64,000 nucleotides of DNA from Spirosoma sp. KCTC 42546. GTDB lineage: Bacteria > Bacteroidota > Bacteroidia > Cytophagales > Spirosomataceae. A model generated the notes under the pieces. The model did no database searches. It saw nothing but the letters and a program-made list of their open reading frames with translations, and was not told the DNA's origin. This document shows, in pieces, positions 1-13,956 of the stretch. Where the stretch lies: positions 4,816,501 to 4,880,500 of the forward strand of contig NZ_CP041360.1 of the NCBI RefSeq assembly GCF_006965485.1, given 5' to 3'. Made by a program: the position numbers and the translations under genes. The first letter of the stretch is position 1; each line of letters starts with the position of its first letter.

Positions 1-181
1 CCCAATTATATTCACTGGGAATATGGGTATCCCGAAAATAGGGCGGCTTGCTATATTCGTCGGCCATTTTCAGGAACAGAAGGTAGGTAAGCTGTTCGAG
101 GTAATCACCATAGCCCATGCCGTCGTCGCGGAGGGTATTACAGAAGTTCCAGACTTTCTGGACCAGGGCGTTTGTACTCAT
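1..181 (-). CDS. hsdM: Type I restriction-modification methyltransferase subunit HsdM, N-terminal fragment (cut by window edge)
   Basis: The reverse complement from the ATG at 181 encodes about 60 residues beginning MSTNALVQKVWNFCNTLRDD and continuing through GYGDYLEQLTYLLFLKMADE, the hallmark N-terminus of HsdM DNA methyltransferases. The rest, including the SAM-binding and NPPF motifs, lies beyond the left edge. HsdM methylates the recognition site in complex with HsdS and, with HsdR, forms the restriction complex. The gene begins 21 bp after the stop of the zeta-like gene, so it looks like the last visible member of the minus-strand defence operon. The unusual point is that it is separated from hsdS by four unrelated defence genes. 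Identification is confident, although only the helical N-terminal part is visible. Confidence 0.9.
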   Translation of the reverse strand, partial: MSTNALVQKVWNFCNTLRDDGMGYGDYLEQLTYLLFLKMADEYSKPPYFRDTHIPSEYNW

Positions 182-202
182 TACGTAATAAGGGAAATCA
201 GT

Positions 203-949
203 TTATTCGTTTAATGGGCTGATTTTATCAAGGATATTGGCTGTAAACCACTCCGGAACGTCCTCTGACTGTAGTTCAAGTTCTACTCCACCAGTGACTT
301 CGGCAAGCCAGACCCGTTCGGTTCCCGAGTTATCAAAGATATAGGCCCGGTCGGTTAGCCGAATGGCGTCGAGTAATAAGTCTAATGACCGGTAATACCG
401 TTCGACAATCTTGTCTGGTGGTACGCTATGACCACCGGTCAGGATTCGGTAGCTCACCCGTTCGACATTAATTTGGGGATCGTCGGTGGCAATGTAGTAG
501 AGATAGGTTCTGAAACCGGCATCCTTAGCCCGACGAAACACATCTAGCTTGTCGGAGGAAGACATAACCGTTTCGAAGGTAAACGATTGCCCAGTCTGAA
601 TTAACGCGGTTCGTAACCAGTCGGTCAGAATAGACGCTACATAGGAGTTGATGGACAATTGACTAAAATCAGCTGTATCTTCCTGGATTTGGATCGTCTT
701 AAATTCGGTTGATAGATCAGCTCGAATGGCTAATGGATGCCCTGTAAAAAAGAATTGAAAAGTAGCTGCTTCCGGCGTTGGTAAGGAAAATCGGCTAAAT
801 TTAAAAAAGGGATGCTGACGGAGTTCGCCTTCCAGTTCATCGGGATTCAGGTAATGACCCAGTAAGTCGAGAGAAACTACTTCTTTAATCGTACTTTTTC
901 CGGAACCGTTTGGCCCGGCAAATACCCGCATACGACTTGCTCCCTTCAT
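203..949 (-). CDS. Zeta-toxin-like P-loop kinase/ATPase
   Basis: This 248-residue protein starts with a Walker A motif GPNGSGKS at residues 12-19 right behind the start, followed by a helical region, a FETVMS motif mid-protein and a conserved segment GGHSVPPDKIVERYYRSLDL near residues 175-195. This arrangement matches the zeta-toxin / AAA_33 P-loop family, whose best-known members phosphorylate UDP-N-acetylmuramic acid and so block cell-wall synthesis. That activity is known for the family and is not demonstrated here. The ATG overlaps the stop of the upstream 79-residue gene (ATGA overlap), which suggests translational coupling as in toxin-antitoxin pairs. It lies inside the composite hsdS-mcrBC-hsdM operon. 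An alternative start is Met7. A non-toxin P-loop kinase remains possible. Confidence 0.75.
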   Translation of the reverse strand: MKGASRMRVFAGPNGSGKSTIKEVVSLDLLGHYLNPDELEGELRQHPFFKFSRFSLPTPEAATFQFFFTGHPLAIRADLSTEFKTIQIQEDTADFSQLSINSYVASILTDWLRTALIQTGQSFTFETVMSSSDKLDVFRRAKDAGFRTYLYYIATDDPQINVERVSYRILTGGHSVPPDKIVERYYRSLDLLLDAIRLTDRAYIFDNSGTERVWLAEVTGGVELELQSEDVPEWFTANILDKISPLNE

Positions 950-1185
950 GAAAGACGGAAATGACGGGACGTAACACGCCGAGTCTTTATGGCCCGAAGA
1001 ATGGATTGTTCTTCAACTCCCTCAGGGGTTATCTGAACCCGAACAAGTTCATCGCCAATCACAACAGTAACCGGATGGCCAGAGGCAACAGCCCGCTCAT
1101 AGGCCTGACGGGTAGCCTTTCCAGCCAGTTCAGGGATTTGCTGTTCCCGGCGGTCGATTTCCTGATCAGATAGTTTCATAGTCAA
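946..1185 (-). CDS. Small antitoxin-like protein coupled to the zeta-like gene
   Basis: This 79-residue protein of mixed charge begins MTMKLSDQEIDRREQQIPEL. Its stop codon overlaps the zeta-like start by four bases, and it begins 8 bp after the mcrC stop. No family is recognised from sequence alone. The helical, charged N-terminus and short C-terminal strand region fit a small antitoxin that neutralises the P-loop protein, but this rests only on position and size. The start could be Met3 rather than Met1. An open frame on the opposite strand (961-1173) overlaps it and is rejected in favour of this one, because this gene continues the operon. Confidence 0.6.
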   Translation of the reverse strand: MTMKLSDQEIDRREQQIPELAGKATRQAYERAVASGHPVTVVIGDELVRVQITPEGVEEQSILRAIKTRRVTSRHFRLS

Positions 1186-1193
1186 ATCTACGC

Positions 1194-2552
1194 TTATTTT
1201 GACAAGGAGTCAACCTCGGCTGTTGGCCACGGCAGGAAAGCGTCTCTGAGTTGGGCTACTAGGTTAGATAACATTTCCTGTTTCGTCTCCCCGGTAACGG
1301 TTAGGTCTTCTGCTCGTATGTGAATCGTATTCTCCTTCATTAGTTCAGAGGAAATATGAAACGTTTTAGGCTCGGTCGGCTGCTGCCCAAACGGTAACGG
1401 GTAGAGTAGCAGAACCCGGTTGGTCGTACGGCGGAGGGCGTAACTGACCATCTGGTATAGGTCCGTCTGACTAACTCCGGCCTTTCTGTCCCCCAGCTCA
1501 TACTTCCTGACCTTGTATTTGGTATCGACCACCAAATGACTCCCTAGTTTATCCGTTATCAACAGGTCGTTTCTGATCTGAAAAACCTGCTGATCGGTCA
1601 GCCAGCCGGTAGCCTGGGTACGGATAGTCTCCAATTGGCTTCCGACTTCCGTTTTGACTACGCCCGCAACAAAGTCCTCGTAAACCATATCCATCGGAAC
1701 CAGAAAACAGAAATGTCGCTGTTGGGCGTTCTGCCGATTCAGGTACTGATGGTTCAGGAAGAACCGACACATATCCAGACAGGATTCGTATCCTTGGAAA
1801 AATCGATTTAGCTGAATCGTATCACAGTCCTGTACTGTACAGGGAATTTCGTCCACCTCATCCAGAACAAAGAGTATTCGTTCCAGATCCTGGCGAGTTT
1901 CAACCTGTCGACAGAGTTCGACTAACCGACGGGTCACGTATTTAATAACCTGGTTCAGCTTGTTGTTGAACAGGAAAGGTTCGTGGTCACAGACCAGCTG
2001 ATGCCAATTCCCCCGGCTCAAACTGGTCGTGATATATGCCTGTGTATTTAGCCGCCCCCGAACATAAGACATGGTTTCGGTCAGCTCCTCGTACTGGTGA
2101 TAGGGCTGTGATCCGATCAGTTGGTAGGTAAACTGAGCGAAATACCGAATCAGTGCTTCCGGGAAGTTAGCGACAGGTTCTGATCCCGTTAACAGATCGG
2201 CAAAGGGGAATTTCACCCGATGACCATAGTCAAGCCACCAGCCTAAATGGCGGAAGGCAGTATCGGCCTGTCCACTACTAAATAATTTAGGTAGGATCTG
2301 GATCGTTTGACCTTCGAACTGGATAAAGCCTACATAGTGACCAGCCCTCATCTTTATTTTCCCCTCGCTAAACTCGAATCGTAAAAAAGGCTGACGTGCT
2401 GGGGCAGGTTGCTCCGGGTCTTCTTCATAAAATAGTGTACGGCTTTTCCAGACCGAGTCCAGGTAGTTTTCCAGTTCCTGAATACGATTGATCAAGGAGG
2501 TTGGTACCGATCTGGTATGGTGTTCGATCAGCTCGATAGGTTCATCCCACAT
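1194..2552 (-). CDS. mcrC: McrC-like nuclease subunit of the McrBC modification-dependent restriction system
   Basis: A 452-residue protein with the layout of the McrBC 5-methylcytosine restriction component McrC. It has an N-terminal beta-rich region (to about residue 100, including an LPKL motif), a central helical part, and a C-terminal PD-(D/E)xK nuclease core with IRNDLLITD at about 326-334 and VVDTKYK at 341-347. The putative metal-binding residues are D329 and D343 with K345. In the known system McrC is the DNA-cleaving subunit that joins the McrB GTPase ring. The start lies 2 bp after the mcrB stop, so the two are almost certainly co-transcribed and translationally coupled. The nuclease motif looks intact, so the system is probably active. 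Confidence 0.88.
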   Translation of the reverse strand: MWDEPIELIEHHTRSVPTSLINRIQELENYLDSVWKSRTLFYEEDPEQPAPARQPFLRFEFSEGKIKMRAGHYVGFIQFEGQTIQILPKLFSSGQADTAFRHLGWWLDYGHRVKFPFADLLTGSEPVANFPEALIRYFAQFTYQLIGSQPYHQYEELTETMSYVRGRLNTQAYITTSLSRGNWHQLVCDHEPFLFNNKLNQVIKYVTRRLVELCRQVETRQDLERILFVLDEVDEIPCTVQDCDTIQLNRFFQGYESCLDMCRFFLNHQYLNRQNAQQRHFCFLVPMDMVYEDFVAGVVKTEVGSQLETIRTQATGWLTDQQVFQIRNDLLITDKLGSHLVVDTKYKVRKYELGDRKAGVSQTDLYQMVSYALRRTTNRVLLLYPLPFGQQPTEPKTFHISSELMKENTIHIRAEDLTVTGETKQEMLSNLVAQLRDAFLPWPTAEVDSLSK

Positions 2553-2554
2553 AG

Positions 2555-5248
2555 CTAGCTGACGATCAACTGGTCGGTTATTTCATCCTGTACCGCTTTA
2601 ACGCCCGCTTTGTCCAGAATCCCAATGACAGTTTTGGCATTCCCGTTAAAATACTCCATCAGGAGCGGGATAACACGGTTGTTAAAAACTCCGTTTAGCT
2701 GGTCCTGGGTCTTACCGATAAAATAAGCGTGGCCAATCAGGAAATCGGCGGATTTATGTTGAGCCCGGATAGACCGGTTCAGGTTGTTCAGCATTATTTC
2801 TAAATCGGGTTCCAGCAGGTGGGCTTCGGGCTTTTTATAGATAAACTCAAACCGGCGACGGAGGGCTATATCCAGTAACGCCAGGGACTTATCGGCCGTA
2901 TTCATGGTTCCGATCAGGTACAGATTAGGCGGAACTGAAAATAGCTCGCCCGATGGTAAGGTTACAGTCAGTTCATTATCCCCTCCAAGCCGTTTGTCAT
3001 CTTCCAGTAGGGTAATTAGCTCCCCGAATACCCGAGACATATTGGCCCGGTTGATCTCGTCAATGATCAGAACGTAGTTTTTAAGTTCAATCGGTTCTGA
3101 AGTCGAGTCATAGGAACCCAACTCTTGTATACCTTTTATAATTGCCTCATAATATGGACCTTCCTCGTCAATAGATTTAATACCTCTATACATCTCACCA
3201 AGAGTTATAATAGAAATAAGTTGACGCGTTTTTCTTTCAGGAACTTTTATCCATAGGGCCTTATATTTATCCTGATAATCTGCTATTCGGAATTTTCCCC
3301 CATTACTACTTTTGAGGTCCATTTCATTACCAGCTCTAACAGCTTTTATATACTCATTAAATGCCTTTTCAAACGCCCTTAGGCTGATTTTCGGCCTTGT
3401 TGGTAAGCTGTCTTCGTAGTTAGCTCGGGCCAGTTTAGCCATCTTATAAAAGATACCCTCCCGCTGTTCGAACTGAAGATTCCCCGCTGTTACATCCGGC
3501 TTCAGCCCCATCACGAAATCCTCGTAGGTATAGTTCTGGTGGAAGGTAACGAACTCGATCTGGCCCTCTTTCCGAAGCTGGTCGAACCGGGCTTTAGTAG
3601 TCTTACGGTCGTCTTTCTCCTTACCATCTATAATGTCCACCGCCAGATTTATAGTTTCATAGGTTTTCCCCGTACCTGGAGGGCCATAGAGGATAATGTT
3701 TTTAGGGTATCGAGCATCCATTTTTGGACTGGGCATGATGGCTTCTGGTTGAATAATATTAAGTAGCCCGTGTTTCTCGAAAACCTGTCGGTACTGGGGA
3801 TACGGTTTAACGTACTCCTGGATAATTTGGGGGCCAAATAGGATTGGAGAAAAAGTATCACTTTGAAATAGTCTCTTAATACCTGGAAACTGATTTTCGG
3901 TATATAACCACTCCTTATCTGCAAGCCAGTCTACTGCTCGAAAATGTCTGTTATGGATTGTATCGTCTCGGTATTGATAGGGGCCAGTTATAAGGCCAAT
4001 ACCAACAACTTTGTTCTGCCCCCAGTTGGCAATTATTACATCACCGATGGATGAATCCCTGAACATCATCATGTTCAACGTCTCATTTGGGGTATTATCT
4101 GATTTACCAGTATAATTGTCGAGATCAGCTAACGTATTGTACTGATCAAGAGGGCCGATATCGTAGTTCGATGAATAGATGGCCATGATCCTTTCCTCAA
4201 CATCGTTCCACAAACCAGCTGTTTGACTTCCAGGGGAGTACTTCCAGAACCGTCGGCCCGCTATCGGAATTACTGACCGGGCCAAACGTTCAATAGTCTC
4301 AAACTGCTCCTGGGTGGCGGTAAAATTAGTCCCTTGGTTCCCGCCTTTAAAATCAGCGAAGGCTGGCAATCCCTGAATGTCTGCTTTGGTAACGGGCTGA
4401 TTCCATAGGTTTAGAAGTACCTTTATTTTTACTCGTTGGGCCGATTCACCCGCAAATCCGGTTAACTGGTAAGGCTGTTCGCCAACTTCATCTAAGCCGG
4501 TGTATACTTCCGACACTACTTCGGCTAGGGCATAACACCCAGCTTCCGTGCCTGTTACCCATAAAATGACGTTATCGCCGACTTTAACTTGTTGGGAATG
4601 GGCTGTCACTCGCCATGTTCGAAGGGCATTATCTTCTAGCGACTTCACAATCCGAAATTGGGACGGACTCCCCAGAAAAACCCAGTAGTTTACATCGGCT
4701 ACGGTTTCTGCGACTACTGGCTGGCTGGCAACTTTAATGGACTCCTCCAGTTCTTGTTTAGGAACATGAAATGTGTCGTACGAGCCGGACTCACGAATGA
4801 TGTTTTCAATAATCACTCTATGTTCGTCCAGGAAAGTACTTATATTGACCTTCCAGTCAGGGTCTGTATAGTAGTGTTCGTATCGATAGCCTCTAATTTT
4901 TCGAAACTTATCCGGCCCAATTTGCTGAATTATCTGATCGTATATTTCCCGTTGAGCCATTAAATGTGGGTCATCGAATACAATCATCAGGCGGCAATAG
5001 TTGATTAGGTTGGTAGCCGAATCATAGCCGAGACAGAGCGTAACGCTTCGGGTCTTGTTATTATTACTAACCGGGAGGTATAAGCCGATGGAGATATAAT
5101 GATCGTCTCCTGAAAACAGATAGACGTTTCTGGGTCTGCCAGCTTTGTTTTTCTGCCGGAGCAAATAGGTCAACTCAGCTTCCGGGTGTTCGCTCCGGTA
5201 GGTTTCCAGGAAATCGAAGACTGCCCGGTGGTAATCGGTAATGGCCAT
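2555..5248 (-). CDS. mcrB: McrB-like AAA+ GTPase with three N-terminal recognition-type domains (DUF3578, EVE, PUA-like)
   Basis: This 897-residue protein is much longer than E. coli McrB (about 460 residues). Residues 1-155 match the MrcB_N/DUF3578 type. About 185-320 look like an EVE domain (NYWVFLGSPSQF start). About 330-480 form another PUA/EVE-like segment (FWKYSPG, IGDVIIANWG, VVGIGLITGPYQY). From about 515 to the end is the McrB AAA+ motor: Walker A GPPGTGKT at 522-529, Walker B VLIIDE at 726-731, and the signature MNTADKS at 782-788 followed by ALRRRFEFI. EVE and PUA-like folds read modified bases in known restriction proteins, so recognition of modified DNA is inferred. The gene follows hsdS by 26 bp and is followed by mcrC after 2 bp. 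Codon use in about 3120-3400 is visibly more AT-rich than its surroundings. Confidence 0.9.
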   Translation of the reverse strand: MAITDYHRAVFDFLETYRSEHPEAELTYLLRQKNKAGRPRNVYLFSGDDHYISIGLYLPVSNNNKTRSVTLCLGYDSATNLINYCRLMIVFDDPHLMAQREIYDQIIQQIGPDKFRKIRGYRYEHYYTDPDWKVNISTFLDEHRVIIENIIRESGSYDTFHVPKQELEESIKVASQPVVAETVADVNYWVFLGSPSQFRIVKSLEDNALRTWRVTAHSQQVKVGDNVILWVTGTEAGCYALAEVVSEVYTGLDEVGEQPYQLTGFAGESAQRVKIKVLLNLWNQPVTKADIQGLPAFADFKGGNQGTNFTATQEQFETIERLARSVIPIAGRRFWKYSPGSQTAGLWNDVEERIMAIYSSNYDIGPLDQYNTLADLDNYTGKSDNTPNETLNMMMFRDSSIGDVIIANWGQNKVVGIGLITGPYQYRDDTIHNRHFRAVDWLADKEWLYTENQFPGIKRLFQSDTFSPILFGPQIIQEYVKPYPQYRQVFEKHGLLNIIQPEAIMPSPKMDARYPKNIILYGPPGTGKTYETINLAVDIIDGKEKDDRKTTKARFDQLRKEGQIEFVTFHQNYTYEDFVMGLKPDVTAGNLQFEQREGIFYKMAKLARANYEDSLPTRPKISLRAFEKAFNEYIKAVRAGNEMDLKSSNGGKFRIADYQDKYKALWIKVPERKTRQLISIITLGEMYRGIKSIDEEGPYYEAIIKGIQELGSYDSTSEPIELKNYVLIIDEINRANMSRVFGELITLLEDDKRLGGDNELTVTLPSGELFSVPPNLYLIGTMNTADKSLALLDIALRRRFEFIYKKPEAHLLEPDLEIMLNNLNRSIRAQHKSADFLIGHAYFIGKTQDQLNGVFNNRVIPLLMEYFNGNAKTVIGILDKAGVKAVQDEITDQLIVS

Positions 5249-5274
5249 TAACGTGATGTGGATTTAGGACTCGA

Positions 5275-6621
5275 TTAAAACAAACTCAGCTGATCGCCTG
5301 ACGATCCGGCGTTCCGGCCCTCATAGACCGGAAATAGCTCCGGAATGGCTTCCAACTCCTCTAACTTTAGTTTATCAACAGACGTAGTAATCAGCTTACC
5401 TTCAAAGGCCTGTTTCAGGATACTCTGTCGTAGATTCTCAGCCCGAACCAGTTCCTGACGGATCGTGGCTTCCATCGCATCAGCCTCCGATAACCGAGCT
5501 TCGATTTCCGATACGATTTGGGTTTGGGTAGTGAGGCCAGGGAAAGGCATTTCCAGATTCTTAAGTTGGGAAGTATTGATCCTAGGTCGAGTTGCTCCAT
5601 GAACATCAAGGGTTACGGTTTTATGGACTCGTTCGGTACTTAGTGAGTAAACCAAGAATTTACGATTCACCTGGTTTTCATCTGTCCGGATACAGAAACA
5701 ATCAGCTTTGTTAATAGCCTTGTACTTAAGTTGTGGAATAAGAGTAGCTCTGACATTCTCTCCGACGAAAGACGAAAAGACAATATCTCCATCGAAGATC
5801 TCATGTTTCTCAAGAGACGTAAATTTATCTTCCGAAATGAAAGTTTCTTTCTCACCAATGAACTCCATTCGGCCAACATTTTCTAGGCGAATAACCTGAT
5901 AACCTGGTTGAGGAATATAGTCACTTGTTTTAAGGTTTGAACCAAACGGCCCGTCAAAGACTCGTTTTACTACATCTCCTAGCTTCACCCGTTCCCAATC
6001 CGGGTTATTCAGGTAATGATGGAGAACCGCCTGACGATACGTTTTCAGTCGGGCGAGGGCCGTTTTTAGCTCCTGTACTCCGGCATCCAATTCGGAAAAT
6101 AACTCCTCGATCTTAGCTACAATCTGATGCTGGACGGGGAGAGGGGGGAGAAATATCTCGACTCCTTTGACATCCTGTTGATTAATACTAGCTTGGTTCA
6201 CTGCCTGTTTGGCATTTTTCCGTATCTCCTTTAAGCCTGATGGACTTGTTAGAAAGTGAACTACATATTGGGTATGGGCAATCTGTGAATCTAGGGCAAA
6301 CCGCATGATATTACTTTCAAATACGGTTTCTTCTGTTAAACCTTTTATGTTGGCACATTTCCCTATATGGGTCATGCTATTTACCCGGTTAACCAGTATG
6401 TCTCCTTGATTAAGTTTGTATAAGGCTAATTCCTCTGGTTCAATTTGAACTCGACGGAACGATTCTTGTGGATTTAATATGCCATCATAAAAATTATCAA
6501 TCCTAACGATTCGGTTTCCTGAGCCGTAAAAAGTTTGGGATTTATATAATCCATTTTGTGGCCCTGACATTATCACTTCCCCCAACTTCTTCCTAACCCA
6601 ACCTTCCGGCAACTGTGACAT
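5275..6621 (-). CDS. hsdS: Type I restriction-modification specificity subunit HsdS
   Basis: From Met at 6621 (start MSQLPEGWVRKKLGEV, the typical HsdS beginning) this is a 448-residue protein; the frame stays open to 6693, but that extension does not resemble HsdS. Two target-recognition domains (about 1-155 and 205-355) are each followed by a conserved helical spacer: FLPPLPVQHQIVAKIEELF... and MPFPGLTTQTQIVSEIEARL.... This is the classic two-half HsdS architecture for a bipartite recognition site. Each TRD carries its own GEV/GDV entry motif. The gene heads the operon hsdS-mcrB-mcrC-antitoxin-zeta-hsdM. Local base composition inside the TRDs (about 5600-6560) is more AT-rich than the flanks, as is common for exchangeable TRDs. 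Confidence 0.92.
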   Translation of the reverse strand: MSQLPEGWVRKKLGEVIMSGPQNGLYKSQTFYGSGNRIVRIDNFYDGILNPQESFRRVQIEPEELALYKLNQGDILVNRVNSMTHIGKCANIKGLTEETVFESNIMRFALDSQIAHTQYVVHFLTSPSGLKEIRKNAKQAVNQASINQQDVKGVEIFLPPLPVQHQIVAKIEELFSELDAGVQELKTALARLKTYRQAVLHHYLNNPDWERVKLGDVVKRVFDGPFGSNLKTSDYIPQPGYQVIRLENVGRMEFIGEKETFISEDKFTSLEKHEIFDGDIVFSSFVGENVRATLIPQLKYKAINKADCFCIRTDENQVNRKFLVYSLSTERVHKTVTLDVHGATRPRINTSQLKNLEMPFPGLTTQTQIVSEIEARLSEADAMEATIRQELVRAENLRQSILKQAFEGKLITTSVDKLKLEELEAIPELFPVYEGRNAGSSGDQLSLF

Positions 6622-6820: not shown

Positions 6821-7417
6821 ATGACGAAAAGCCAACCCTATACACAAGCCGATTTGGCCAAACTCGGTAACGTCCTTATTTACCTGGTCGATAGGTTGGG
6901 CCCGATTTCTAAAACCAAGGCCCTCAAACTGATTTACCTAGTACAGGAGGTTTCGGTAAAAACTTACGGCTTACCCTTTTTCAATATGCCTTTTCTGGTA
7001 TGGCGGTTAGGTCCCGTAGCCGAAGACGTTTTCGTTGATCTGTCGGCCGAAGAACCCGTTTTACTAGCAAACTATATTCAGCGTCAGGAAGAAGACTGTA
7101 AGACGTTTATCCATGCCTCCCAACCTTTTTCGGATGACGAGTTTTCGGATAACGAAATGGAAATTCTGGCGCTGGTGGCCAAAACCTATGGTTCACTCTC
7201 CGCCGAACGGCTGGTCGAAGTAATCCACCGTCCCCATTCGCTCTGGTACCAAACGGCCCGAGAGAACGGCGTTTTAGACTACCTCGAACAGGGACGAATG
7301 ACAACGACCAATTTCGAAATTGATTTCGGTCGTTTACTGGACGACATGCCCGAACGAAAACGAATGTACACCGGTCAACTGGACTATCTGGAACAAAGCC
7401 GAGCGTTAAAAGTATAA
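6821..7417 (+). CDS. Panacea/SocA-like (DUF4065) domain protein, probable antitoxin
   Basis: A 198-residue protein whose first 100 residues carry the Panacea (DUF4065, SocA-like) pattern: KLGNVLIYLVDRLGPISKTKALKLIYLVQ, then LPFFNMPFLVWRLGPVAEDVF. The family includes SocA of Caulobacter, a proteolytic adaptor antitoxin, and the panacea antitoxins that pair with many unrelated toxins. Here the stop codon is immediately followed by the GTG start of a 169-residue gene, an ideal antitoxin-toxin arrangement. The pair is transcribed against the surrounding restriction genes. The family call is confident; the antitoxin role follows from family and context. The C-terminal half (about 110-198) is charged and helical and may bind the partner. 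Confidence 0.82.
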   Translation: MTKSQPYTQADLAKLGNVLIYLVDRLGPISKTKALKLIYLVQEVSVKTYGLPFFNMPFLVWRLGPVAEDVFVDLSAEEPVLLANYIQRQEEDCKTFIHASQPFSDDEFSDNEMEILALVAKTYGSLSAERLVEVIHRPHSLWYQTARENGVLDYLEQGRMTTTNFEIDFGRLLDDMPERKRMYTGQLDYLEQSRALKV

Positions 7418-7927
7418 GTGAATCCCTATAGCCCCTGCTCGGGGCTACTTTTTTACTACGTATCCACCGTGTTTATCGAAGGCTCACTGCTGTATTTCGA
7501 CCCGTTTTATTTTAAAAGTGGGAATACAGCCAAACCCAAGTACTTTTTAGTTCTAAAGGTAACAGCCAATCAAACTATTCTGGCATCGCTCCCATCCAGT
7601 CAGGATTACGTTCCGTCTTACCAGCCAATTGCCCACGGCTGTATTGAACTGGCAGAGGCTAATTTTAGCTGTTACGTATTTATAGCCAATCAGCCGGTTC
7701 TGACCGACGGCTGGGCATTTCCTAAAAACACCTTCTTATACGGGCAGCAAATAGACGAGTACCCGATTGAGACGCTTGCTGACATCTATCCAGTGGAAGG
7801 TGTTGACTATCAGATTATCGGACAACTGACTACTGATGAGTTTATCCGGGTCAAACGTTGCTTTACCCAGTCGGCCACGGTCAAACGGAAATACAAACGA
7901 ATATTGGCTGAGGGTCTAGGCGGCTAG
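7418..7927 (+). CDS. Unrecognised 169-residue partner of the Panacea gene, candidate toxin
   Basis: This gene starts with GTG at 7418, directly after the stop of the Panacea gene (zero spacing). The product is rich in aromatics and strands (SLLYFDPFYFKSGNTAKPKY, FLVLKVTANQTILASLPS, then TFLYGQQIDEYPIETLADIY). The pattern of a short strand, DPF..K, then KPKYFLVLK vaguely recalls the start of MazF/PemK-like toxins, but no catalytic motif can be claimed. Function as the toxin is inferred only from pairing. The 3' end overlaps the 3' end of hsdR tail-to-tail by 12 bp (7916-7927), so convergent transcription could affect both. It is not a secreted or membrane protein by inspection. Confidence 0.65.
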   Translation: MNPYSPCSGLLFYYVSTVFIEGSLLYFDPFYFKSGNTAKPKYFLVLKVTANQTILASLPSSQDYVPSYQPIAHGCIELAEANFSCYVFIANQPVLTDGWAFPKNTFLYGQQIDEYPIETLADIYPVEGVDYQIIGQLTTDEFIRVKRCFTQSATVKRKYKRILAEGLGG

Positions 7928-10672
7928 CTGCTCATTCAGTTCATCAATCAACGGGAACGTCCGATCTCCGAACAGGTTCCAGAGTTTACCCAGACCGCCA
8001 TGTTCCACAAAGGGGGATAGATCAAAATCGTCCCGGTCGAGGTGGATGGATCGGGCAATGGTATCCTTCATCATCCGCAACCATTCTATCTGTTCTTCGG
8101 TGAATTTCAACGCTCCGGCCTGTTGGCGGAACACCCAGTTCTGGAAATTCCGGTTCACCGCCTGATCGTAGCTGGTTAGTACGGTATCAATCTCCAGCAC
8201 TCTCCGGATCAGCGATACCAGGGCGATCAGCTCATGTTTAGGTTGCGACCCATTTACCTTGTCCAATACCTCGTAGGCTTTCCAGACCGTAAACGGAGAC
8301 AGATCGGGCCGATCCGTTTTAAGCTTCTCCCCTACTTCCTGAATCATCCGGTAGGTAAGCTCCCGGCGTCGGTTCGGCTGGTTGTAGAAGATCTGAAGGG
8401 CAGTAATCTCGTCCCGATGTTCGTAGAGATAGACTTTAAAATCAGTGACAATCGTCCCCGCTTTTTCGGCCATCGAGGCATCCCAGCCAACAGAAATAAC
8501 CGTATCCAGATTTACGCCATCAATCAACTGGTCGTGATCCCGACGAATAGATTCAATCAGGTTTCGGTAGTTGGGATCATCAAATACAGCTATAGCCTCC
8601 CGGATCAGTTCCTCTCGGGCATCGTCCAGGATAGCAGGGGTTACTGCTTCTCCAGTAACTTCCAGAAGGAGTCGTGCCCGTTCCTCCAGTTTATCGGGGT
8701 TATAGGCATCCAGTAACTCATTGACAACCCGGTTAATGGTTTTACCACCAGCGGCCGCTGTCAGTTGATTCCGTTCTGCCGGACTCAGTTGTTTTTCCAG
8801 ACGAGTAAGCCGGTTCGCCAGTGAGGTCAGGGTATCTTCTGAGGTATCGCCCCCAACCGCTACATTCCAGAGCAGATTCTTCAGGGAAACCCCCGGTTTA
8901 CGTTCGAGCGGCCGACTATCTGTTTTTAAGGACTTACTAACCCCTACTGCATCGACCAGGACAAAGTGGGTTTTATTCCCTACCGCCGAGGGGGTTACTT
9001 TCCGAAGATCGTCGCCCGGCATGGTACGGGTGCCCCGGCCTTTCATCTGCTCGAAGTACGACCGCGACTTTACATCCCGCATGAACAGAAGGCATTCGAT
9101 AGCCTTGACATCGGTACCGGTAGCAATCATGTCCACGGTTACGGCGATCCGGGGATAATAAGCCGTTCGGAACTGCTGAAGAACTTCCGATGGTTTTTCG
9201 CCCCCATTCTTACCCACGCTATAGGTTACTTTCCGGCAGAACTCATTGCCCTCTCCGAATACCTCCCGGACAGTTTTAATAATATCGTCGGCGTGGAAAT
9301 CGCTCTTGGCAAAGATCAGGGTTTTAGGGACCTCTGCCCGGTGAGGGAAAATCTCGGGTAGTTTATCGTGGAAGGTTCGAACAACGGTACGTATCTGATC
9401 CGGGTTTACCACATCCCGGTCAAGAGCCGTACCAGAATAGGTAATCTCTTCATCCAGTTGCTCCCACCGTTTTTTACGGGTTTGTCGCTCCCGTTTATCG
9501 ACCCACTCGCCGGCCTTTACGACCGCTCCATGTTTAGTGATGTGGGTTTCGATTGAATACACGTCAAAGGGTACGTTAACCCCATCAGCTACCGCCCGTT
9601 CGTAGGTATACTCGCTGACTACATTCCGGTTAAAGAAGCCAAAGGTTCGGTTGTCGGGTGTGGCCGTTAAACCAATCAGGAAGGCGTCAAAGTAATCAAG
9701 CACCTGCTTCCACTCGTTATAAATGGAGCGATGGCATTCGTCGATGATCACGAAATCAAAAGCCTCAATCGGAATACGGGCGTTATAGACTACTTCACGG
9801 GAAACCGGCGTAACCACCCGTTCATTCAGCGACTCCTCCTCGGCTGTTTCATCAATCTCCTCCCCCCGCAGAGACGAGTACATCCGCTGAATGGTACTGA
9901 TACAGACCTGGGCCGACGGATCGACAAAGGAGGACCGGAGCCGCTGTACGTTATAGAGTTCGTTAAATTTCCGGGGGTCATCATTGGGAGAAAATGCCTG
10001 GAATTCCTGTTCAGCCTGCTCACCCAGGTTTCGGGTATCGACCAGGAACAGTATCCGTCGGGCTTTGGCGTATTTCAACAGCCGGTACGTCGCGGTAATC
10101 GCGGTGAAGGTTTTACCGGATCCAGTGGCCATTTGAACCAGCGCCCGGGGCTGATTCTTCCCGAAGGATTTTTCCAGGTTCGTTATAGCTGTTATCTGGC
10201 AGTCCCGTAGGTGCAATGTATCCAGATCAGGAAACCCTTGTAGTCGCTGACGTAGGGAGGTGCCCTGTTTTACCCAGTCCCGAAGGGTTTCAGGTCGATG
10301 AAACGAAAAGGTTTCTCTTGACCGGGGAGCGGGGTCACTGTTATCAGTAAAATGGGTTTCTGCTCCGGTGGATTCATAAACAAATCGTAAGGGCTGATGG
10401 TCTTTCTGCCACTTTAATTTACTGACAGCATAGCGGGCCGACTGTTCCTCTACCGGAGTCAGGATAGCCCCTTCCGGTTTTGCTTCGATAACTCCTACTG
10501 GCTTCCGGTCAATAAAAAGTAGATAATCAGCCGGACCGGAATCGGTTGGATACTCCCGAACAGCGACACCCAGGCCAGCCGAAAAATTCAGGGTCTTCAC
10601 ATCCTGTACGAGCCAACCAGCATCGACCAACATTCGGTCAATCTGTTGACGGGCAATCTGTTCCGGGGTCAT
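7916..10672 (-). CDS. hsdR: Type I restriction endonuclease subunit HsdR (EcoEI-type)
   Basis: A 918-residue motor/nuclease subunit. The N-terminal PD-(D/E)xK nuclease is seen as ADY with D49 and VIEAK with E63 and K65. The SF2 helicase core follows: Walker A ATGSGKT at 182-188, DECH at 311-314, LIGLTATP, and an MKGRGTRT motif (helicase motif VI). The C-terminal third, ending in LWNLFGDRTFPLIDELNEQLAA, fits the EcoEI-type HsdR C-terminal domain. It translocates DNA and cuts when bound to HsdM/HsdS. The gene lies alone on its side of the Panacea pair, about 1.3 kb upstream of hsdS. It has its own upstream gap (10673-10875), so it is probably transcribed separately. All key motifs are intact. 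Confidence 0.93.
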   Translation of the reverse strand: MTPEQIARQQIDRMLVDAGWLVQDVKTLNFSAGLGVAVREYPTDSGPADYLLFIDRKPVGVIEAKPEGAILTPVEEQSARYAVSKLKWQKDHQPLRFVYESTGAETHFTDNSDPAPRSRETFSFHRPETLRDWVKQGTSLRQRLQGFPDLDTLHLRDCQITAITNLEKSFGKNQPRALVQMATGSGKTFTAITATYRLLKYAKARRILFLVDTRNLGEQAEQEFQAFSPNDDPRKFNELYNVQRLRSSFVDPSAQVCISTIQRMYSSLRGEEIDETAEEESLNERVVTPVSREVVYNARIPIEAFDFVIIDECHRSIYNEWKQVLDYFDAFLIGLTATPDNRTFGFFNRNVVSEYTYERAVADGVNVPFDVYSIETHITKHGAVVKAGEWVDKRERQTRKKRWEQLDEEITYSGTALDRDVVNPDQIRTVVRTFHDKLPEIFPHRAEVPKTLIFAKSDFHADDIIKTVREVFGEGNEFCRKVTYSVGKNGGEKPSEVLQQFRTAYYPRIAVTVDMIATGTDVKAIECLLFMRDVKSRSYFEQMKGRGTRTMPGDDLRKVTPSAVGNKTHFVLVDAVGVSKSLKTDSRPLERKPGVSLKNLLWNVAVGGDTSEDTLTSLANRLTRLEKQLSPAERNQLTAAAGGKTINRVVNELLDAYNPDKLEERARLLLEVTGEAVTPAILDDAREELIREAIAVFDDPNYRNLIESIRRDHDQLIDGVNLDTVISVGWDASMAEKAGTIVTDFKVYLYEHRDEITALQIFYNQPNRRRELTYRMIQEVGEKLKTDRPDLSPFTVWKAYEVLDKVNGSQPKHELIALVSLIRRVLEIDTVLTSYDQAVNRNFQNWVFRQQAGALKFTEEQIEWLRMMKDTIARSIHLDRDDFDLSPFVEHGGLGKLWNLFGDRTFPLIDELNEQLAA

Positions 10673-12984: not shown

Positions 12985-13956
12985 CCCAAGTTGTGTGGTT
13001 AAAAGAAAAACAAGAGGTGGTGGGACAATATAAAGCCTACTACTTTAAGTAAAAAGCCATTAGCCGTTACCGCATGAATGCGCCGAGGCCAGCGATCCAC
13101 TAACTGACTAATATCGGTTTCCACGTGCCGTCGCGCCTGCTGGCGCAGCCAGTTGGTGCAGTAATCATTGTCAGCCTGATGGGAATTACTGCGCCGAATG
13201 GGCTCAAAGGCTATCCCAGCCGCTTGGGCTAACAAGTCCTCCTGGATGTAGTGGTTATAGGCTTTATCACCGTAAACGGTGCTACAGACCGGTAAGTCAA
13301 AACCCAACAACTCGAAGGCAATTTGATCATGGTTACTGCCTGGTGTGAAGTCAAACTCTACGATCCGCCCATCAGCGGCCGTGACCAAATGCACTTTATA
13401 ACCGTAGAAATATTCCCGTTTACTGGCGTTATAGCCTCGAAAAGCCGCTCCTTGCACCAGTCGGCAACGACTAATGCGAATGTTTTTACAGACCGGCAGG
13501 GGACAAGAATCAATGGCAAAGTGGGTATTCTCGGCCTTGGCCCAGCTACTTAGCAACGCAACGAGTTCAGCTAGCCGGTCTTGCAGCCTGTAGAGTCGCC
13601 GGTTAAATTGAGAGCGGCTGAGTTTGTGGGTGATGTTGCGAGCACGCTTCATCGAGCGCATGGCCTGCTGGCAGTTGCCGCCAAAGTCCAGACAAGCGAT
13701 GACAAACACAAACAAGACCGCACCGGCGGCCCGGCTCGGCATCGATCAGTTTAGGTGGTTGCCCACTGGCAGAAGCGCCCGTGGAGCGACAGTGGTTGCA
13801 AGTCTTAAGATAGTCGTCTATCATTGCGTACACGAACACATCGCGTAAGTCGTCGGTGTCGAAGTGGAGCATGGTCAATAGTTTAGGTTTGGCGACTCAA
13901 AACTATTCAAACCATGCTTTTTTATTTAATGCAGCTTATTACCACACAACTTGGGT
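12984..13956 (-). mobile_element. IS982-family-like insertion sequence
   Basis: The element of about 973 bp is bounded by inverted repeats. The 19-mer TTAACCCAAGTTGTGTGGT at 12981-12999 is found perfectly inverted at 13941-13959. Taking ACCC as the element end, the flanks are TAATTA at 12978-12983 and TAATTA at 13957-13962, which fits a 6-bp target duplication, although TAATTA is itself palindromic. It encodes one transposase in two overlapping frames on the minus strand. The intact, identical ends suggest a fairly recent insertion. Confidence 0.85.
12999..13878 (-). pseudogene. IS982-like DDE transposase, reading frame shifted
   Basis: The N-terminal part reads from the ATG at 13878 (MTMLHFDTDDLRDVFVYAMIDDYLK ... 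PPKLIDAE). The remainder lies in a different frame, open from 13742 to 12999 (AVLFVFVIACLDFGGN ... FNRRLYRLQDRL). The switch must occur around 13720-13745, in a GC-rich stretch. In the second part the catalytic triad is visible: D in HFAIDSCPL, D in TVYGDKAYNHY and E in RRHVETDISQL. Together the two parts give the roughly 290 residues usual for IS982 transposases. Either a single-base indel has inactivated the gene or translation uses a programmed frameshift; the sequence alone cannot decide. The C-terminus runs into the left inverted repeat. Confidence 0.75.

Follow-up and report, generated by a model that had tools for sequence, protein, structure and literature searches.

McrBC and toxin-antitoxin-like genes inside a type I restriction-modification operon of Spirosoma: a probable frame with two cargo slots

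The closed 8.66 Mb genome of Spirosoma sp. KCTC 42546 (RefSeq assembly GCF_006965485.1) carries a type I restriction-modification operon whose hsd genes are separated by mcrB, mcrC and two toxin-antitoxin-like pairs. The operon lies at the beginning of the 64,000 nt stretch that we analysed (contig NZ_CP041360.1, positions 4,816,501 to 4,880,500; 'the window' below). Is such a locus a fixed composite machine, or do its contents change while the hsd genes stay? We conclude that the EcoKI-like hsdR-hsdS-hsdM operon is probably a frame with two swappable cargo slots, and not a fixed composite machine. In this locus slot 1, the gap between hsdR and hsdS (R|S), would be occupied by an antisense Panacea-type pair, and slot 2, the gap between hsdS and hsdM (S|M), by McrBC followed by a pair made of a small gene and a zeta-like gene. 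The reading offers a testable account of how type I, type IV and toxin-antitoxin systems come to share an operon and to spare the host.

Genes of the locus

The minus-strand order is hsdR - hsdS - mcrB - mcrC - small gene - zeta - hsdM. Window positions, from the first gene of the set onward, are:

7916..10672, minus strand: hsdR, 918 aa, restriction/translocase subunit belonging with HsdS and HsdM, head of the gene set
7469..7927, plus strand: panT-like gene, about 152 aa, putative toxin partner of the panA-like gene, slot 1
6821..7417, plus strand: panA-like gene, 198 aa, antisense in slot 1, antitoxin domain of the Pfam family SocA_Panacea at 61.4 bits
5275..6621, minus strand: hsdS, 448 aa, two target-recognition halves, Methylase_S matched in two stretches
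2555..5248, minus strand: mcrB, 897 aa, slot 2, Pfam AAA_5 and EVE
1194..2552, minus strand: mcrC, 452 aa, slot 2, Pfam McrBC at 222.8 bits, nuclease motif D..DTK
946..1179, minus strand: small gene, 77 aa from an ATG start, slot 2, putative antitoxin of the zeta-like gene
203..949, minus strand: zeta-like gene, 248 aa, slot 2, Zeta_toxin at 34.9 bits (cut-off 22.3)
181 to window position -1273, minus strand: hsdM, 484 codons, the first 60 within the window (1..181)

The order from hsdS to hsdM had been given by the original prediction, made from the letters of the sequence, and it was confirmed along with the tight gaps, which measure 26, 2, 14 (8 from an alternative TTG start possible at 1185), -4 (an ATGA overlap) and 21 bp. 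Pfam families and motifs likewise bear out the separation of hsdS and hsdM by McrBC and a toxin-antitoxin-like pair. The hsdR gene and the antisense pair (6821-7927) had been overlooked; hsdR lies upstream of hsdS on the same strand at a distance of 1294 bp, and the panT-like gene overlaps its 3' end by 12 bp.

HsdR has Pfam matches to ResIII, EcoEI_R_C and SWI2_SNF2, a match to HSDR_N slightly below the cut-off (23.6 versus 25.1 bits), and the motifs D..EAK, GSGKT and DECH. HsdM, the remainder of which was read from L003:10727-12181, has N6_Mtase and HsdM_N domains (precomputed, P0241), the motifs DPSCGTG and NPPF, and scores of 447 bits to StySJI M and 322 bits to EcoKI M. The zeta-like protein has a P-loop, GPNGSGKS, and an NPD motif. 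Since all catalytic motifs sought in HsdR, HsdM, McrB, McrC and zeta are present, there is no sign of dead genes. With an N6-adenine methylase-type HsdM, a two-half HsdS and an HsdR motor-nuclease in one locus, the type I gene set appears complete, and both methylation and cleavage are predicted. Unrelated genes fill both the hsdR-hsdS and the hsdS-hsdM gap, which is the arrangement of rlo/mlo-type operons.

Under the proposed mechanism, the slot-2 genes would be translated from one mRNA with hsdS and hsdM. HsdRMS would cut unmodified foreign DNA, McrBC would cut foreign DNA that its modified bases shield from the type I system, and both toxin-antitoxin-like pairs may serve as a last line of defence or for retention of the locus.

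Frame and cargo across Bacteroidota

HsdM relatives were collected at E <= 1e-140 and found in 11 of 222 genomes of the family and 38 of 395 genomes of a phylum sample (own genome included in both). We compared 49 loci including our own and left out one contig-end match (G497); L and G numbers denote loci and genomes. The hsdR and hsdS genes were sought upstream of hsdM on its strand, so the R-S-M order is partly by construction. In 37 loci all three genes are shown; the remaining 12 are truncated or escaped recognition. With a filled gap defined by a length of at least 250 bp and an ORF of at least 75 aa, 33 of the 37 loci hold extra genes (R|S gap in 28, S|M gap in 22): both slots are filled in 17, slot 1 only in 11, slot 2 only in five, and four are empty. 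These loci represent 22 genera, with slot 1 filled in 16 and slot 2 in 19. A single genus (f18 g92) supplies ten of the 37 loci, all with an empty S|M gap.

The original prediction had proposed a conserved composite module and had suggested looking for the same gene order in other Bacteroidota. In that search mcrBC followed by zeta was present in none of the 49 loci except our own, and the exact order in no other genome searched. What stands of the proposal is that defence genes interleaved with a type I operon recur across the phylum, packed here tightly enough for a common transcript. The explanation behind it, a cooperation of McrBC and the zeta pair with the type I system in which zeta kills cells losing hsdM, draws on the packing (gaps of -4 to 26 bp) and on hints from protein lists: McrB and HsdM may share a contig in Spirosoma litoris (P0131, P0246), and on other contigs zeta may accompany HsdM (P0019, P0247) or McrB (P0003, P0133). 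Own genome aside, no contig is common to the lists for all three proteins, among the 120 matches listed for each.

The close relatives speak against it. No further genome of the window's genus among those searched passed the HsdM limit of E <= 1e-140; the protein list has HsdM relatives 83-92% identical in Spirosoma soli, S. litoris and S. pulveris. In the nearest relative compared, G069 (L060; HsdM 92%, HsdR 84%), the S|M gap holds a 121-aa gene and then mcrB-mcrC, with mcrC joined to hsdM by a 4-bp overlap and no zeta there; two genes, one of 294 aa and one of the DUF5131 family, occupy its R|S gap, and a 47-bp copy of the mcrB start lies ahead of the 121-aa gene. G056 (L061; HsdM 82%) carries other cargo, one DUF5677 gene and one of Schlafen type. 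As G069, G056 and others carry different gap contents, we rejected the fixed module, which we regard as very unlikely. In G608 (L182), of the same genus, an antisense Panacea pair likewise lies between hsdR and hsdS (identities to our locus: hsdR 90%, panA 87%, panT 83%, hsdS 38%); the contig stops at hsdS, and slot 2 is outside view.

Pairwise comparison bears on the inheritance of the frame and the turnover of its cargo. Identity of HsdM correlates with that of HsdR at r 0.88 (406 pairs, 29 loci) and with that of HsdS at r 0.59. A common cargo family was found in 0/10 pairs for slot 1 and 0/21 for slot 2 at HsdM identity of 50-65%, in 25/169 and 5/124 at 65-75%, and in 1/12 and 2/21 at 75-85%. 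L078 and L079 have HsdM proteins 98.6% identical and HsdR 92% identical over 658 aa of a split gene; their cargo differs in both slots. Their DNA match ends at the hsdR 3' end and restarts at the hsdM start, and between hsdR and hsdM the common DNA amounts to three short hsdS stretches. Similarly, L092, L093 and L095 (HsdM 98-99%) differ in slot-1 cargo; L093 and L095 have HsdM 98%, HsdR 95% and HsdS 95% identical, yet a different slot 1. Truncated second hsd copies of at least 75 bp are present in seven of the 49 loci, ahead of hsdR in L099 and among the slot genes in the other six (L063, L080, L082, L094, L095, L097); the hsdR copy of L095 retains both gene ends. Thus, the sequences compared show a frame inherited as one unit and slot contents that turn over, break at hsd gene ends and sometimes stack, with truncated hsd copies remaining between the cargo units. 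We infer that the conserved termini of hsdR, hsdS and hsdM recombine and that cargo is exchanged and stacked in this way.

In L073 an hsdS repeat of about 50 bp recurs at cargo borders and after hsdM (oriented positions ~11517, 12171, 14680 and 17988); it could be a recombination anchor or a short scar.

A number of observations weigh against a two-slot frame of this kind. Turnover is not instant: at HsdM identity of at least 85% a common cargo family is found in 10/19 pairs for slot 1 and 1/5 for slot 2, and 16 of the 21 pairs in this bin lie within a single genus. No hsd scar was found in our own locus. In L073, L078, L090, L094, L095, L096, L097, L100, L109 and L110 the gap adjoins an hsdR piece that is incomplete, a mere scar or located at the end of a contig, and slot 1 is sometimes misjudged for this reason. 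Matches to a Bacteroidota-type promoter pattern occur at chance level, as do sigma-70-type and terminator-like sites, and a single transcript is what the spacing suggests. Furthermore, type IC-like operons (L122, L130) also hold cargo between M and S, including a zeta pair and, in L130, YhcG; the slots are therefore not special to one HsdM clade. Another type I family, with HsdM 45-47% identical, served as a control: M and S are adjacent in eight of nine loci (no hsdS was recognised in L153), and an ORF separates R from M in one, L158, of the three loci with a recognised hsdR. Finally, slots under selection and slots merely tolerated both seem compatible with the data.

The last point is the substance of a further explanation, in which the hsd gaps of a defence island merely tolerate insertions and the cargo is functionally unlinked. 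The cargo bears on it directly. The slot and flank ORFs (126) fall into 83 clusters; 50 were scanned against Pfam, with no match for 15. Labels rest on Pfam except where PADLOC is named:

L071: Fic
L073: RhuM-Fic
L064: YhcG nucleases
L063, L109: GmrSD
L061: Schlafen
L072: HTH and PIN
L079: HEPN
L093, slot 1: UPF0175/DUF3368 pair, antisense
L080: OLD/GajA-like gene (PADLOC)
L066: PtuAB-like genes (PADLOC)
L082:6544-11450, between hsdS and hsdM: complete QatABCD (PADLOC)

Much of the identified cargo thus consists of defence or toxin-antitoxin genes, and many junctions measure a few bp or overlap, neither of which fits mere clutter; the sources for the embedded TgvAB (PMC11411939) and for an island bearing DarTG2 (PMC12255303), in the parts available to us, also describe protection against phages. 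On the other hand, the cargo is varied and little shared (see the 25/169 and 5/124 pairs above), IS200-like genes sit in both slots of L080, the slot-1 cargo of our locus and of L093 is antisense, and some cargo has no obvious defence role (DUF559, DUF488, DUF4407, uracil-DNA-glycosylase, a ClpP-like protease, IS200-like genes). We hold functionally unlinked insertion to be somewhat unlikely and keep to the frame with two cargo slots. Its wider form, a loading dock across Bacteroidota and at least one alphaproteobacterial plasmid, in which systems are swapped and stacked via hsd ends and cargo expression is coupled to the methylase, is tentative and stands slightly below an even chance. If true, the dock would give a layered response in one transferable block: cut unmodified DNA, cut modified DNA, shut down. 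If the gaps are real docking slots, reading them would be a direct route to new defence genes.

Regarding plasmids, HsdM relatives at E <= 1e-100 occur in 37 records, three of which were examined. A Gemmobacter plasmid has the order R-S-DUF262-M; a Methylomonas plasmid has a VapC-type gene directly before hsdM, and neither hsdR nor hsdS is annotated in that stretch; a Vibrio campbellii plasmid has S-M with no annotated cargo between.

Further cargo deserves mention. In slot 1 of L060, L072, L075, L090, L094, L095 and L101 a DUF5131-like gene adjoins a partner of about 295 aa (clusters of 10 and 11 ORFs, DUF5131 itself having been tested on L060 alone); they make a candidate defence pair, for which no role turned up in this analysis. 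For a 1028-aa slot-1 protein (L109:372-3458) PADLOC gave the candidate PDC-S60, with residues 280-1026 aligned to positions 160-905 of the 906 in the model. In L082, QatABCD is followed by more cargo, and two hsdM 5' pieces divide three cargo units. The IS200-like (Y1_Tnp) genes of L080, with Pfam tested on the slot-1 copy, belong to one cluster and have copies of the hsdR and hsdS 3' ends alongside. In L130 (11185-12456) three small ORFs lie between hsdS and hsdR, so the S|R gap of a type IC-like operon is also filled.

McrBC and self-attack

How would a host that methylates its DNA tolerate an enzyme that cuts modified DNA? The original prediction saw here a puzzle of self-attack. The answer depends on McrB, for which a structure model (pLDDT 89) was compared with known folds using VIA-align. 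Beyond its first part three domains were assigned:

4274..4699, minus strand: residues 184-325, EVE domain, above the Pfam cut-off
3800..4267, minus strand: residues 328-483, second PUA-type reader, EVE/YTH-like by fold comparison
2555..3721, minus strand: residues 510-897, AAA+ GTPase domain with motifs GPPGTGKT, DEIN and MNTADKS

The signature of the McrB AAA+ GTPase is of the MNxxDxS type. In LlaJI-like hybrids of McrBC and a methylase, the McrB-like protein recognises an unmodified site by means of a B3 domain. No B3 match was found in Pfam for our McrB, and the fold list is full of EVE, YTH and AAA+, with residues 1-175 barely covered. Given an AAA+ GTPase, a PD-(D/E)xK partner in McrC and a modified-base reader on McrB, the two genes are predicted to form a modification-dependent (type IV) restriction system. 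McrB has two base-reader domains in tandem, EVE and then EVE/YTH-like.

Most likely, self-attack is avoided in that HsdM makes N6-methyladenine (m6A) at its own motif and McrB reads other marks or sequence context. The genome has further N6-methylase (m6A-type) and C5 methylase genes. The puzzle is thereby weakened, HsdM being of the adenine-N6 class and other methylase genes of both kinds being present; it is not closed, owing to the EVE/YTH-like second reader. At G000:C1:4979153-4982297 in this genome, about 150 kb from the operon, a 644-aa C5-methylase-like frame adjoins an N6_N4 methylase match; C5 methylation bears on self-damage by McrBC.

A different solution would be a hybrid resembling LlaJI, with HsdM/HsdS methylation serving as the self-mark for McrBC, or with m6A sensed by the second reader of McrB. 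Residues 328-483 do match EVE and m6A-reading YTH folds equally well, and LlaJI and 6mA-reading relatives of McrB are known (PMC12707154, in the part of the source available). However, the McrB of G069, in the same slot and beside a 92% identical HsdM, has no EVE match and a reader stretch largely dissimilar to ours, and the other N6-methylases of the genome would clash with a promiscuous m6A reader. We consider such a hybrid highly improbable and retain the account in which HsdM and McrB act on different marks or contexts. Other close McrBC relatives with readable context have no hsdM or hsdS neighbour. On a single ancestry of the mcrBC genes of our genome (G000) and G069 the McrC tree is neutral, with G000, G069, G603, G042 and G038 in an open fork.

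Toxin-antitoxin-like pairs and known systems

The zeta-like protein, with its kinase domain and P-loop, is a putative toxin, which the product of the 77-aa gene may neutralise. The original prediction had supposed that the pair punishes loss of hsdM. A search at E <= 1e-30 in a family sample of 150 genomes gave 25 zeta loci, viewed as far as contigs reach. Four adjoin hsdM or hsdS (G000, G077, G119 and G134, with hsdS not seen in G134); the other 21 have no such neighbour (some lie near contig ends, and the G049 gene is broken), which also speaks against the fixed module. Among ten further zeta loci of the phylum there was no clear case of embedding in a type I operon; weak methylase-like matches lie in the vicinity in L163. 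In a tree made by a quick method with SH-aLRT support only, the zeta genes of G077, G119 and G134 cluster together at a distance from the G000 gene, and zeta of the type IC-like operons is likewise placed in a different part of the tree from zeta of G000. Zeta was therefore probably captured at least twice independently. The 77-aa gene has no Pfam match, and 13 other loci have a recognisable homologue of it in front of zeta. Bringing its own small upstream gene and occurring mostly without hsd genes, the pair is, to judge by this distribution, a free two-gene module and no hsdM-specific guard, and the supposed punishing role is not supported.

Regarding the Panacea-type pair (source for the domain: PMC8832971, available in part), the panT-like protein, scanned from a longer start at 7418, matched no family in Pfam, PADLOC or NCBIfam, and a PDB sequence search gave matches only at E 0.15 or worse. 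The start at 7469 is likelier than 7418 because relatives start there. A panT match was obtained in 13 other genomes, and in 11 of these panA and panT were recognised as adjacent.

Genes embedded between hsd genes are already known: rlo/mlo, PrrC, TgvAB and DarTG2. We compared our locus with these on the parts of the cited sources available to us. The rlo genes lie between hsdR and hsdS and the mlo genes between hsdS and hsdM, RloF being GmrSD-like (2005 work cited in PMC5183652, PMC4619093); the same two gaps are used in our locus, whereas its cargo is a whole McrBC, a zeta pair and an antisense Panacea pair, and the present analysis traces the frame, its scars and its breakpoints through a phylum. 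In Vibrio cholerae VPI-2, as in our locus, a type I operon encloses a type IV system, TgvAB (PMC11411939). TgvAB, a GmrSD-like system, sits in the hsdR-hsdS gap, whereas our McrBC lies between hsdS and hsdM and is followed by a toxin-antitoxin-like pair. In the EPEC RRDM island (PMC12255303) a type I operon harbours the toxin-antitoxin system DarTG2, much as ours holds toxin-antitoxin-like pairs, and the site was suggested as a potential recombination hotspot for defence systems; that island has one slot (hsdS|hsdR), hsdM first and a regulator, RptR, and no type IV system is named in the part available. PrrC in EcoprrI (PMC3874165, PMC12707154) is a suicidal effector encoded within a type I operon and bound by the type I complex; zeta and PanT would resemble it in the placement of their genes. 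EVE-McrB type IV systems, abundant in Bacteroidetes (PMC7641849), have an EVE reader fused to the McrB GTPase, as here; our McrB adds a second EVE/YTH-like reader, and its genes are inside a type I operon. In the literature (titles and abstracts, with most subscription journals and all preprints outside the scope) we found neither mcrBC with zeta between hsdS and hsdM nor any study surveying Bacteroidota for two-slot hsd operons, which is weak support for novelty.

A scan of the window yielded no transfer RNA gene. Transposase-like ORFs, judged by eye, flank the operon on both sides (window 12999-13742 and L003:8422-9270). Between panA and panT (7418-7468) there is a terminator-like hairpin with a T run (7429-7447), which might keep the antitoxin in excess; the close homologue L132 also has 52 bp between the two genes.

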